Shown: positions 85-4,663, numbered from the stretch's first letter. The stretch is 24,694 nt of DNA from a virus (IMGVR_UViG_3300031841_002508:1-24694); one strand, 5' to 3'. Program-made: numbers and translations. Notes: generated from the letters alone by a model not told the origin.

Positions 85-669
85 GTGAAAATTCCCGCAA
101 CTATCGCTGCTGGCACGACTGTTGCGTGGGTCGATGATGCAACCGTCGATGTATTTGGCGCTGCGGTAGATAATACAACGCACAGCTTAACGTATTATTT
201 GCGAAAAAGTATTGCTGCGGGAGGTGTTACCGCAAGCGGTGTTGCAGAAGAAAATGGATGGAAGGTGACATTGACAGCGGCAACGACCGCTGAAATGGAC
301 GTTGGCGATTGGTACTTCCAGGCTGTCGCGACGAGCCTGAGCGATAGCACGGTCATTGAGCTGGGACGTGGTGGCTTCACGGTTGAAGCATCACTTGCGT
401 ACACCGGAATAGCTGGTGCGTATGACGGCCGATCGCAGCTCCAAAAAGATCTCGATGCTGTTCAGGCAGCAATTCGGGCGATTATTAGTGGTGGCGCCGT
501 CGCTGAGTACCGAATTGGCACTCGTAACCTAAAAAGATTCGAGCTGACAGAATTGATGGAGCTTGAATCTCGCTTGAAGGCGCAGCTTGCTCGCGAGAAG
601 AAGGCCGAGATGATTGCCAACAACCTTGGCAATCCGCATTCGCTTTACGTCCGATTTAATCAAGGCTGA
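85..669 (+). CDS. gpW-like head-completion (head-tail joining) protein with N-terminal Ig-like domain
   Basis: 194 residues, GTG start, 7 bases after the preceding stop. Residues about 1-103 are Thr/Ala/Val-rich with an alternating beta pattern (LTYYLRKS, WKVTLTAATTAEM, DWYFQAVAT) ending in FTVEAS, consistent with an Ig-like or BppU-like beta sandwich. Residues about 110-192 are helical and contain YDGRSQLQKDLDAVQAAI, YRIGTRNLKRFELTELMELE and a basic end, the pattern of gpW-type proteins that sit between terminase and portal. Lambda gpW (68 aa) seals the packaged head and forms part of the head-tail connector. Here the gpW-like part is only the C-terminal half. The stop overlaps the portal start by one base (TGATG). 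The family call is from motif memory and synteny; the role of the extra domain is unknown. Confidence 0.7.
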   Translation: MKIPATIAAGTTVAWVDDATVDVFGAAVDNTTHSLTYYLRKSIAAGGVTASGVAEENGWKVTLTAATTAEMDVGDWYFQAVATSLSDSTVIELGRGGFTVEASLAYTGIAGAYDGRSQLQKDLDAVQAAIRAIISGGAVAEYRIGTRNLKRFELTELMELESRLKAQLAREKKAEMIANNLGNPHSLYVRFNQG

Positions 670-2162
670 TGGGACTCCGCACTCGACTACTTCGTAGCTT
701 TGGTCTGCAGCCGATCCCTCGGTCTGGCCCGCCGGTCCGTCGTCGGCGTAATTATGCAGGCGCAATTATCAGCCGCTTGACGAGTGACTGGATGTCATCT
801 CAGGCGAGTGCTGACGCTGAGATTCGGACCAGTCTGCGCAAGCTGCGCGACCGCAGCCGCGAAATGGTGCGGAACAATCCGTACGCCAAGCAAGCGAAGC
901 GAACCACGCAAATCAACGTGGTGGGGGCGGGTATCAAGCTGCAGTCCCAGGTCCAGCAGATTCGCGGTCGGAAATTGAACGATTCAGTGAATCGTTTGAT
1001 CGAAGAGAAGTGGAACGCTTGGTGCCGGGCTGAGAATTGTGATGTCGCGGGCCGCCATAACTTCCACATGATGGAATGGTTGGCCGTTGGTGCTTTGCCG
1101 GAGTCAGGCGAGGCGTTGTTCAGGATTATTCGTCGGCCATTTGGCAACAGCCGAGTGCCTCTGGCTTTGGAAATGCTTGAGGCCGATATTTTGGATGAGG
1201 AGTACCAAGGCCCAACCTTGGCTCGCTCCAATGAATGGCGGATGGGTGTGGAGATTAATGAATGGGGCCGCCCTGTCAGATATGCATTCCTGACGAGACA
1301 TCCAGGAGACTATTGGTTCCAGAACGTTGAGCAGAAAGGAGGCAAGCATGTCTTTCTGCCCGCAGAAGATGTAATTCATCTGTTCATCCCTGAGCGTCCA
1401 CGGCAACATCGCGGCGTGCCGTGGTTCCACCCTGTGATGAGCGATGCGCATCAACTGCAGGGTTACGAAGAGGCGGCTGTGATTCGAGCGCGTGCTGGCG
1501 CATCAATCATGGGATTTGTGACTTCACCTGAGGGCGAGCTTGATGGTGATGACGTTGAGGGCGAACGCCGGATTTCGGAGTTCGAGCCTGGCATGTTCAA
1601 GTATCTGGAACCAGGGCAGAACGTTTCGGTGCCAAGCATCGACTCCCCGGACCAGCAGTACGAAATGTTCGTGCGCAATAAAGTCCGCAGATTCGCAAGC
1701 GGGTTTGGATGCAGCTACGAAACTTTAAGCCGTGACTTCAGCAACACTAATTACAGCAGCAGCCGGTTGAGCTTGCTCGAAGATCGTGAGCACTGGAAAG
1801 TAGTTCAGCGTTACATGATCGAGCACTTTCATACTCGTATTTTTAGAGAATGGCTGAACTTGGCGGTGCTTTCTGGCGAGCTGCCGTTTGAAGATTTCGA
1901 TCAACGGCCTGAGCGATATGACAATCCGAGGTGGACTGCCCGTGGATGGGATTGGGTTGATCCATTGAAGGAAGCGAAGGCTTATCGCGAAATGGAACAA
2001 GCGGGCTACATGACGAAGGCGCAAATCGTGGCGAAGCTTGGCGGTGATTTCTATGACAACTTGGCTGAGCTGTCGCGTGAACAGCAAGCGGCTGACGACC
2101 TTAATGTGGAGCTTGATCGTGACATTATTGAGCCCGAAATGCCGCCGGAGGTGACTGAGTAA
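669..2162 (+). CDS. phage portal protein (lambda gpB family)
   Basis: 497 residues. The portal is the dodecameric ring at one head vertex through which DNA is packaged and ejected, and on which the procapsid is nucleated. The N-terminus is basic (RTRLLRSFGLQPIPR). Residues about 68-88 contain NPYAKQAKRTTQINVVGAGI, which matches the NPYA...VVGxG signature of lambda-type portals, followed by WNAWCRAENCD. Further typical segments are EMLEADILDEEY, GVPWFHPVM and NYSSSRLSLLEDRE (the NYSS(S)R motif near the middle-to-C-terminal part). Length is close to the family's usual 500-550 residues. The start codon shares a base with the upstream stop, and the stop shares one with the following fused gene (TAATG). 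Confidence 0.95.
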   Translation: MGLRTRLLRSFGLQPIPRSGPPVRRRRNYAGAIISRLTSDWMSSQASADAEIRTSLRKLRDRSREMVRNNPYAKQAKRTTQINVVGAGIKLQSQVQQIRGRKLNDSVNRLIEEKWNAWCRAENCDVAGRHNFHMMEWLAVGALPESGEALFRIIRRPFGNSRVPLALEMLEADILDEEYQGPTLARSNEWRMGVEINEWGRPVRYAFLTRHPGDYWFQNVEQKGGKHVFLPAEDVIHLFIPERPRQHRGVPWFHPVMSDAHQLQGYEEAAVIRARAGASIMGFVTSPEGELDGDDVEGERRISEFEPGMFKYLEPGQNVSVPSIDSPDQQYEMFVRNKVRRFASGFGCSYETLSRDFSNTNYSSSRLSLLEDREHWKVVQRYMIEHFHTRIFREWLNLAVLSGELPFEDFDQRPERYDNPRWTARGWDWVDPLKEAKAYREMEQAGYMTKAQIVAKLGGDFYDNLAELSREQQAADDLNVELDRDIIEPEMPPEVTE

Positions 2163-4663
2163 TGCCTGCAATGCCGACCGAAGGAATGCGCGAAGAGGCG
2201 CGTCGATATAGAAAATGGAAAGAAGATGGACGAAAAGGCGGCACGGAAGTTGCAGCCCGTCGTGCAACTCAGATTCTTAGTGGCGACGAACTAAGTGATG
2301 ATGTGATCGTCGCAATGAGCGCTTGGTTCGCTCGTCATGAAATTGACAAGAAGGCCGAGGGCTTCAGCCCTGGAGAGGATGGCTATCCCTCGCCTGGTCG
2401 TGTGGCTTGGGCCGCTTGGGGCGGTGATCCTGGAAAAAGCTGGGCAGACGATCGACGTAAAGGTATCGATCGCGCCGCTGATGATATTAAAGAGGATGAG
2501 TCTATAGACTCTGTAACGAATAAACCTGAGTCACTGGAGATGGAACAGGAACACGAAAGGGCCGAGCCCGATGCACTGAAGGTAGGCGATTACGTTTCTT
2601 GGAATTCTTCCGGTGGTCGCGCTCGTGGTTTGATCGAAAAGATTGAACGTGATGGCACGATCGATGTGCCTGATTCTGAGTTCACTGTCAACGGAACAGC
2701 CGAAGATCCTGCTGCGTTGATTTGTGTTTACCGCCCTACTGGAGAGGGTGGTAGCTACGAGAAAACTGAAACTCGTGTTGGGCATCGATTCAGCACTTTG
2801 ACCAAGATAGAGCCCTTGCGTTCACTCGAAGTCGAAAACACTCCTGAGGTCGCTGCTGAAGCGACCGAAGAGTCTGTCGAAAGCGTGAGCGAAAAGCCTC
2901 AAACTCGTGAGATCGAAGGTTCTAAGTTCAAGCGCGTTGAAGCAACAAACTTCAACATGCTTGACGACCGGAGCATGGAGTTTCCATTCAGCTCTGAATA
3001 TCCCGTGGCTCGTTACTTCGGGAACGAGATCTTGAGCCACGAGATGGAGTCTGCGAATCTTTCGCGACTCAATGATGGCGCACCGCTTTTGTATAACCAT
3101 GATCCAGATCGCATGATCGGCGTTGTCGAACGTGCGTGGATTAATGGTGATAAAAAACGCGGTTACGCCAAGGTGCGTTTCTCGCGCAATCAATTTGCGC
3201 AGGAAGTGCTCCAAGACGTTCGCGATGGCATTCTTCGCGGCGTTTCTTTCGGCTACTCCATTGATAAAATGGAGGAGCGAGAAGATAACTTCGTGGCGAC
3301 CAATTGGTCACCTTACGAAGTATCGCTGGCTGTCATCCCAGCCGACCCCACTGTCGGAATTGGACGTTCTCTTGAAGACTCTGATTCTGAACCTGCGGCT
3401 TCAACCGCATCTCCTGAAAACACTATGACTGAACCTGTCATGGACAACACTCCTGACCTGGAGGTGATCCGGTCCGAGGCCGTAGAGGCCGAGCGGACCC
3501 GGACTGCTTCTATCACCAGCATGGGTGAGCGCCACAAGCTCTCCGACCTGGCACGCGAACTCATCGATGGCGGCAAGTCTATCGATGAAGCCCGTGCTGC
3601 ATTCCTCGACAAAATCGGCACCCAAAAAGTGGAACATCGCATTGACGCCAACGATGTTGGCCTTTCCGACCAGGAAACTCGTAACTTCAGCTTCGTCAAG
3701 GCGCTGAACTACCTCTCCAACCCTGGCGATCAAACTGCTCGCCGCGAGGCCGCGTTTGAGATCGAGGTTGGCGAAGCTGCCGCCAAGAAGTACGAGCGTT
3801 CTTCTAACGGCATCGTTATCCCCAACGAAGTCCTCCGTCGTGACCTCGTCGTCGGCACCCCCACTGCTGGTGGTGATCTGGTTGACGATGTGCTCCTGGC
3901 TGGTTCCTTCATCGACCTGCTGCGTAATCGCCTGGCTATCGCCAATGCTGGCGCGACCATGCTGACTGGCCTGCAGGGCAATGTTTCTATCCCTCGCCAG
4001 ACTTCAGCCGCCACCGCTTACTGGGTTGGTGAAAATGCTGCTCCCACCGAGAGCCAGCAGGCCATCGACCAAGTCAACATGACCCCCAAGACTGTGGGTG
4101 CATTTGTTGACTACAGCCGTCGTCTTCTGCTCCAGTCTTCTGTTGATGTGGAAGGCATGGTTCGCAACGACCTGGCTCGTGTCATCGCTCAGGAAATTGA
4201 CCGTGCTGCCATCTACGGCACCGGTTCTTCCAACCAGCCTCTCGGCCTGACCAACACCTCCGGCATTGGCTCCGAGACCCTGACTGGCGTCGGCACCTTC
4301 ACTGAGCTGATCGCCATGGAGACCGATGTGGCAGCTGCTAACGCTGACGCTGGTTCCCTGCGTTACATCATCAACGCAACCACTCGCGGCGGCCTGAAGG
4401 GCGCCAAGAAGGATGCTGGTAGCGGCGAATTCGTGTTCGCTGATGGTGAGATCAACGGCTATCCCGCCATTGTCTCGAACCAGCTGCTGAACAACGATGC
4501 ACTGTTCGGTGACTTCTCCATGTTCATCATGGGTATGTGGTCCGGCCTGGATCTGACTGTGGATCCTTACGCTGGCGCTACTGCTGGCACCGTGCGCGTG
4601 ATTGCGCTCCAGGATGTTGACTTCGCTGTCAAGCAGCCTGGCGCATTCTGCTTCGCCACCTGA
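2162..4663 (+). CDS. fused prohead protease / HK97-fold major capsid protein
   Basis: 833 residues, preceded by a good Shine-Dalgarno (GGAGGT, 2147-2152). Four parts are visible. Residues 1-105 (RHEIDKKAEGFSPGE, GYPSPGRVAWAAWGGDPG) form a domain I recall from other phage proteins. Residues about 140-219 (KVGDYVSW to FSTLTKIEPL) resemble HVA1/Tudor-like (DUF2945) domains. Residues about 250-402 are an HK97 prohead protease (S78) with candidate catalytic His313 in YNHDPDR, Ser362 in RGVSFGYS 49 residues later, and Glu386 in PYEVSLAVIPADPT. Residues about 430-490 look like a scaffolding delta region, and about 549-833 are the HK97-fold capsid core (GIVIPNEV, YWVGENAAPTES, SSNQPLGLTN). Lambda and HK97 encode protease and capsid separately. 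Codon use changes near position 3430, with more C-ending codons in the capsid part. In-frame ATG 3425 could start a separate capsid polypeptide. Confidence 0.92.
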   Translation: MPAMPTEGMREEARRYRKWKEDGRKGGTEVAARRATQILSGDELSDDVIVAMSAWFARHEIDKKAEGFSPGEDGYPSPGRVAWAAWGGDPGKSWADDRRKGIDRAADDIKEDESIDSVTNKPESLEMEQEHERAEPDALKVGDYVSWNSSGGRARGLIEKIERDGTIDVPDSEFTVNGTAEDPAALICVYRPTGEGGSYEKTETRVGHRFSTLTKIEPLRSLEVENTPEVAAEATEESVESVSEKPQTREIEGSKFKRVEATNFNMLDDRSMEFPFSSEYPVARYFGNEILSHEMESANLSRLNDGAPLLYNHDPDRMIGVVERAWINGDKKRGYAKVRFSRNQFAQEVLQDVRDGILRGVSFGYSIDKMEEREDNFVATNWSPYEVSLAVIPADPTVGIGRSLEDSDSEPAASTASPENTMTEPVMDNTPDLEVIRSEAVEAERTRTASITSMGERHKLSDLARELIDGGKSIDEARAAFLDKIGTQKVEHRIDANDVGLSDQETRNFSFVKALNYLSNPGDQTARREAAFEIEVGEAAAKKYERSSNGIVIPNEVLRRDLVVGTPTAGGDLVDDVLLAGSFIDLLRNRLAIANAGATMLTGLQGNVSIPRQTSAATAYWVGENAAPTESQQAIDQVNMTPKTVGAFVDYSRRLLLQSSVDVEGMVRNDLARVIAQEIDRAAIYGTGSSNQPLGLTNTSGIGSETLTGVGTFTELIAMETDVAAANADAGSLRYIINATTRGGLKGAKKDAGSGEFVFADGEINGYPAIVSNQLLNNDALFGDFSMFIMGMWSGLDLTVDPYAGATAGTVRVIALQDVDFAVKQPGAFCFAT

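Follow-up and report, generated by a model that had tools for sequence, protein, structure and literature searches.

The protease-capsid gene at positions 2162..4663 on the plus strand of the window (the whole 24,694-base IMG/VR virus record analyzed here) probably functions as one gene with two starts, with a nested start giving free capsid precursor and the full-length fusion being the minority product. In the mechanism that we propose for this head gene of a lambda-like siphophage, which joins protease, delta-type scaffold, and HK97 capsid behind an N-terminal domain (N-domain) and a Tudor domain, initiation at 2162 would yield the 833-residue fusion, probably as a minority product, while an internal start in the linker, most likely Met427, would yield a standard 407-residue delta-capsid precursor that forms the bulk of the shell. 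The full-length fusion would enter the prohead by way of its capsid domain, bringing its protease and front domains along, and the protease would cut away everything N-terminal to about residues 545-570 in both forms. Before being discarded, the N-domain and Tudor domain would act within the prohead, where the portal vertex is one possible site.

Just inside the 5' end of the window lie a head-tail joining gene and a portal gene of the lambda type (669..2162, plus strand); the fusion gene starts on the final base of this portal gene. The fusion frame is uninterrupted from the ATG at 2162 to the stop at 4663, and a strong Shine-Dalgarno (SD) sequence, GGAGGTGA, lies ahead of this ATG. The open frame and its Pfam, NCBIfam, and PHROG matches bear out the sequence-only reading that protease and capsid are encoded in one 833-residue chain with two extra N-terminal domains. 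Our IMG/VR search matched 277 stretches, 275 of which encode relatives; the best 80 were fetched, and a wider set comprised 132 distinct fusion frames. Since these 80 relatives keep protease and capsid in a single frame wherever a contig spans both, a sequencing error or lost stop was rejected, and no stop separates the two parts in the window. Inspection by eye revealed no convincing site for an internal promoter or antisense gene.

All domains described here lie on the plus strand. Residues 5-107 (2174..2482) make up the N-domain, a predicted five-helix bundle that matches phrog_2859, a PHROG family without assigned function, over residues 5-97; it has no Pfam family, and no solved-structure relative was found in the PDB by profile or by fold. 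The Hva1 Tudor-type beta domain follows at residues 136-218 (2567..2815), where Hva1_TUDOR (PF11160) scores 27.2 bits over residues 142-187 against a gathering threshold of 24.1. Residues 256-404 (2927..3373) are predicted to be an S78 prohead protease based on the Peptidase_S78 score (42.7 bits over residues 286-400, Pfam cut-off 21) and a His/Ser/acid triad. Both catalytic residues named in the sequence-only reading, H313 and S362, are invariant in 132/132 distinct relatives, as is E386, which we add as the third. That reading was also right that two domains precede the protease, although they occupy about 250 residues rather than about 220.

A hypervariable linker occupies residues 405-426 (3374..3439) and is followed by a delta-like helical scaffold region at residues 427-555 (3440..3826) and the HK97-fold major capsid domain at residues 570-833 (3869..4660). 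The capsid assignment comes from Phage_capsid (158.1 bits over residues 570-832, Pfam cut-off 24.2) and TIGR01554 (137.6, cut-off 27.5), while phrog_617 (major head protein, fused type) covers residues 261-832 with an E-value of 1e-164 (profile positions 23-621 of 626). The NCBIfam model for protease/MCP fusions, NF045541, scored 177.2 bits with its best stretch at residues 268-514 and did not reach its cut-off of 525. A full-length AlphaFold2 model (38 related sequences, pLDDT 47) was used for rough secondary structure alone; this low-confidence model contains strands in the Tudor domain and helices at residues 433-457, 461-469, 474-487, and 503-543, with the best block at 440-480. The predicted helical residues 433-543 fit the HK97 delta domain, which serves as scaffold in HK97-type phages (PMC10275583).

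The likely fate of the N-terminal part can be gauged from R4C, which encodes a 629-residue S78 protease-capsid fusion without either front domain. The R4C virion capsid chain (PDB 8gta) is exactly residues 362-629 of the 629-residue precursor, and a counterpart of the delta-like region is missing from this mature chain. 8gta matches window residues 570-824 (E 2e-50), residue 570 being paired in the alignment with the start of the 8gta chain. By homology with R4C, the mature shell protein more likely begins at or slightly before residue 570 than near residues 480-550, where it had initially been placed; since disordered residues may be absent from the deposited model, the cut would lie at or upstream of 570. 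The R4C structure also implies that everything ahead of about residue 570 is very probably lost at maturation, in keeping with the earlier suggestion that the N-terminal mass is removed from each subunit.

Although the protease-delta linker is hypervariable in both length and sequence, it carries an in-frame start codon in all 132 distinct frames (ATG in 128 and GTG in 4). This codon sits just before the delta helix, and the next residue is usually Glu, Asp, Ser, or Thr. The window counterpart is the putative start M427 (3440..3442), which would give a 407-residue capsid precursor, with M422 (3425-3427) as a second candidate. A Met is not improbable by chance in a window of linker length in any single sequence; the product over 23 clusters (70% capsid identity) is about 1e-3. 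Across these clusters, the best linker SD-plus-start combination is stronger than those in windows of equal length from the rest of the respective ORF (combined p 2e-6). Frame +2 was omitted from this SD control because start codons there require TGN codons, which are nearly absent.

In eight of 19 cultured phages, namely CRP-811, R4C, CRP-406, CRP-821, VP882, phiHAP-1, RcCronus (a tie), and PPpW-3, the linker ATG ranks first in SD strength among the in-frame ATG/GTG codons located from the catalytic His to the capsid. The predicted internal-start products of these eight phages begin MSEE, MSDP, MTDK, MTEE, MPDK, MDEQ, MSDT, and MNIK. The SD is strong in R4C (GGAGGA) and clear in CRP-811. In the other 11 isolates, S-CBS1, S-CBS3, ep3, and FoX1 among them, the strongest SD is not at the linker, and no SD precedes the matching codon in S-CBS1 or in the relatives L168 and L230. 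The ClpP-type F10 fusion has an SD and ATG at residue 220, which is not its strongest. Our searches of the open literature turned up no paper that describes an internal start for the capsid in fusions of this kind.

The lambda C and Nu3 genes are nested in frame, such that a full-length protease fusion is made together with an abundant internal-start product, the scaffold. The logic proposed for the window is analogous without C/Nu3 belonging to the family, and the nested product, scaffold in lambda, would be the capsid protein itself here. As in C/Nu3, a conserved in-frame internal start is found at a domain junction in 132/132 relatives; a ribosome-binding site before it is absent in the window and present in many relatives. 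The occurrence of protease and scaffold in one gene has been described (PMC8508860). Because the conserved linker start points to a separate capsid precursor, the 1:1 protease-to-capsid ratio deduced in the sequence-only reading is probably wrong.

That ratio would hold if the 833-residue polyprotein were the only product and the protease removed itself and the N-terminal domains from every subunit, which we consider unlikely. Publication of the Murka (PMC10892653) and MD8 (PMC8508860) fusions as single-gene products is in line with such a polyprotein, as is the lack of an SD at M427 in the window, but the conserved ATG/GTG, the strong SDs in many relatives, and the constraint on synonymous sites at the junction argue against it. 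Moreover, the shell would presumably have to hold an additional ~47 kDa of N-terminal mass for every subunit.

The conserved linker residues could instead be read as the protease's own cleavage motif, Met-Glu/Asp, which would free the delta-capsid precursor by proteolysis rather than initiation. Glu or Asp comes directly after the last linker Met in 101 of the 128 ATG-bearing relatives, and cleavage could plausibly occur in a linker that separates protease from scaffold. Nevertheless, this explanation seems very improbable to us, given that the lineages without a linker Met (L178, L188-L191) have GTG, which encodes Val, that SD sites lie upstream in divergent members, and that the near absence of synonymous change at the junction indicates selection on DNA or RNA rather than on protein. 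A start codon and a cleavage motif could also act together at the linker.

Neither M422 nor M427 is preceded by an SD in the window; this absence is not decisive, since about 12 of the 21 window genes likewise lack one. When the synonymous difference per pair was followed along the ORF in the window clade (83 sequences), it reached its ORF-wide minimum at codons 419-443 (0.146 compared to a mean of 0.415, z -3.2), while the lowest 25-codon window elsewhere was 0.265. Nearly no synonymous change was observed at 10/33 codons in 411-443 compared to 9/761 elsewhere (Fisher 3e-10). The nucleotide sequence of the protease-capsid junction is thus under selection, with the strongest synonymous-site conservation of the ORF at codons 415-443 (3404..3490), and use of the internal start would be one reason for it.

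The conservation runs ~45 nt past M427, which is more than an initiation site alone explains, so we considered whether codons 415-443 harbor some other element, such as an RNA hairpin, a pause, a packaging signal, or a recombination site, to which the ATG would be incidental in the window clade. The conserved stretch contains GGAGGTGATCCGG (3460-3472), an 11-nt anti-SD match with no start codon downstream, whose synonymous sites are kept in nearly all close relatives, and RNAalifold predicts a GGCC/GGCC hairpin at the junction in this clade. As the sole cause of the constraint the hairpin was rejected, its covariation being weak and breaking in divergent members. The start codon, in contrast, is conserved well outside the clade bearing GGAGGTGATCCGG, and we regard an unrelated element with an incidental ATG as improbable.

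HK97 encodes its gp4 protease, of the S78-type family, and its gp5 capsid, with a delta domain, in separate genes. The window shares this protease family and delta-capsid layout but joins the two. An HK97-like separation with both front domains present occurs in one relative, L240, where the portal gene is followed by an unfused N-domain-Tudor-S78 protein (~410-420 residues) and, after about a dozen bases, a 413-residue capsid gene. The 407-residue nested product would be the equivalent of the L240 capsid, so that the fusion may have arisen when the stop separating the protease gene from the capsid gene was lost while the start of the latter was retained. We infer this direction; alternatively, a fusion ancestor may later have been split. 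In a separate Akkermansiaceae MAG locus (L242:3920-6814), the N-domain and Tudor domain form a 218-233 aa protein that is followed by pieces of the protease-capsid frame, in what looks like a prophage copy undergoing decay.

A protease-scaffold-capsid fusion as such is already published: Pseudomonas phage MD8 has a single-gene fusion with a ClpP-type protease (PMC8508860), Xanthomonas phage Murka has one described as a "single 684-amino acid propeptide" (PMC10892653), and NCBI models exist (NF045540/NF045541). Like the window, MD8, Murka, these models, and PHROG 617 combine protease, helical scaffold, and HK97 capsid in one frame. The window differs from MD8 and Murka by its two additional N-terminal domains, and from MD8 in that the MD8 protease is ClpP-like rather than S78. 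The descriptions of MD8 and Murka do not mention an internal start.

The four-part order, which had been singled out as the notable feature, turned out to be widespread and already common in marine phages, although we found no paper naming it. Both the N-domain and Tudor domain are present in 96 of the 132 distinct fusion frames, with 18 having the N-domain only, 3 the Tudor domain only, and 15 neither. Full-length relatives in cultured phages include Roseobacter phage CRP-811, which has all four parts, and Synechococcus phages S-CBS1 and S-CBS3; these three are 44-51% identical to the window protein, likewise follow a portal gene, and are annotated as major capsid protein only. They are not uniform, in that S-CBS1 has no recognizable Tudor domain and CRP-811 has an SD at its internal ATG that the window lacks. 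R4C shares the S78 protease-capsid fusion with the window but, like VP882 and phiHAP-1, has neither front domain, and it has an SD before its internal ATG. Five close relatives (L062, L064, L066, L068, and L070; 76-80% identity) start after the N-domain and keep the Tudor domain, showing that the N-domain can be lost.

Because the N-domain is missing from these five relatives and from R4C, VP882, and phiHAP-1, comparison of the sequences shows it to be an accessory part rather than an essential scaffold. The sequence-only reading had suggested that the N-terminal domains may serve as scaffold. Given that the N-domain is absent from the five close relatives, a recognizable Tudor domain from S-CBS1, and both from R4C, VP882, and phiHAP-1, the helical delta region at residues 433-555 is more likely to be the scaffold; what survives of the proposal is a role inside the prohead. 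Portal proteins carry the N-domain C-terminally, whereas free S78 and ClpP-type proteases carry it N-terminally; it is also present on a MuF-like protein, and it is paired with a Tudor domain alone or with a ferritin-like domain ahead of S78. Since most of its phage partners work inside the prohead, an interior role, such as portal docking or component gathering, is favored over chance fusion and is supported by these architectures.

Eight of the portals (L197, L201, L206, L213, L214, L234, L243, and L248) have the N-domain close to their C-terminal end, which is expected to point toward the interior of the head. Two phage S78 proteases (L241:3542-5257 and L244:2543-4123) have the N-domain together with the ferritin-like domain, which is inserted ahead of the protease, and a BFVD entry for an N-domain protein is named Dps. 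As a cellular protein in its own right, roughly 115-160 residues long, the N-domain is also found in Mesorhizobium and relatives (L256-L261) and in Patescibacteria/Peregrinibacteria (L252-L254, L263). These genes lie among ordinary chromosomal genes with no obvious prophage, and their housekeeping neighbors in Mesorhizobium and Peregrinibacteria offered no clue to function.

For the S78 protease-capsid fusion family as a whole, we lean toward the view that the "single propeptide" genes are two nested in-frame genes, in which a conserved internal start would supply the delta-capsid precursor in bulk and the full-length protein would be a minority subunit delivering the protease, N-domain, and Tudor domain into the prohead. 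Modeled alone from 106 diverse sequences, the N-domain is a compact bundle of five helices (pLDDT 95, pTM 0.88). This defined, confidently modeled domain, found repeatedly on portals, proteases, and capsid fusions, is a candidate prohead-interior module. If the nested start is used, it would explain the low protease copy number in phages with protease-capsid fusions and would correct the annotation of a large group of phages, both aquatic and cultured, in which the capsid gene has been entered as a single long propeptide.
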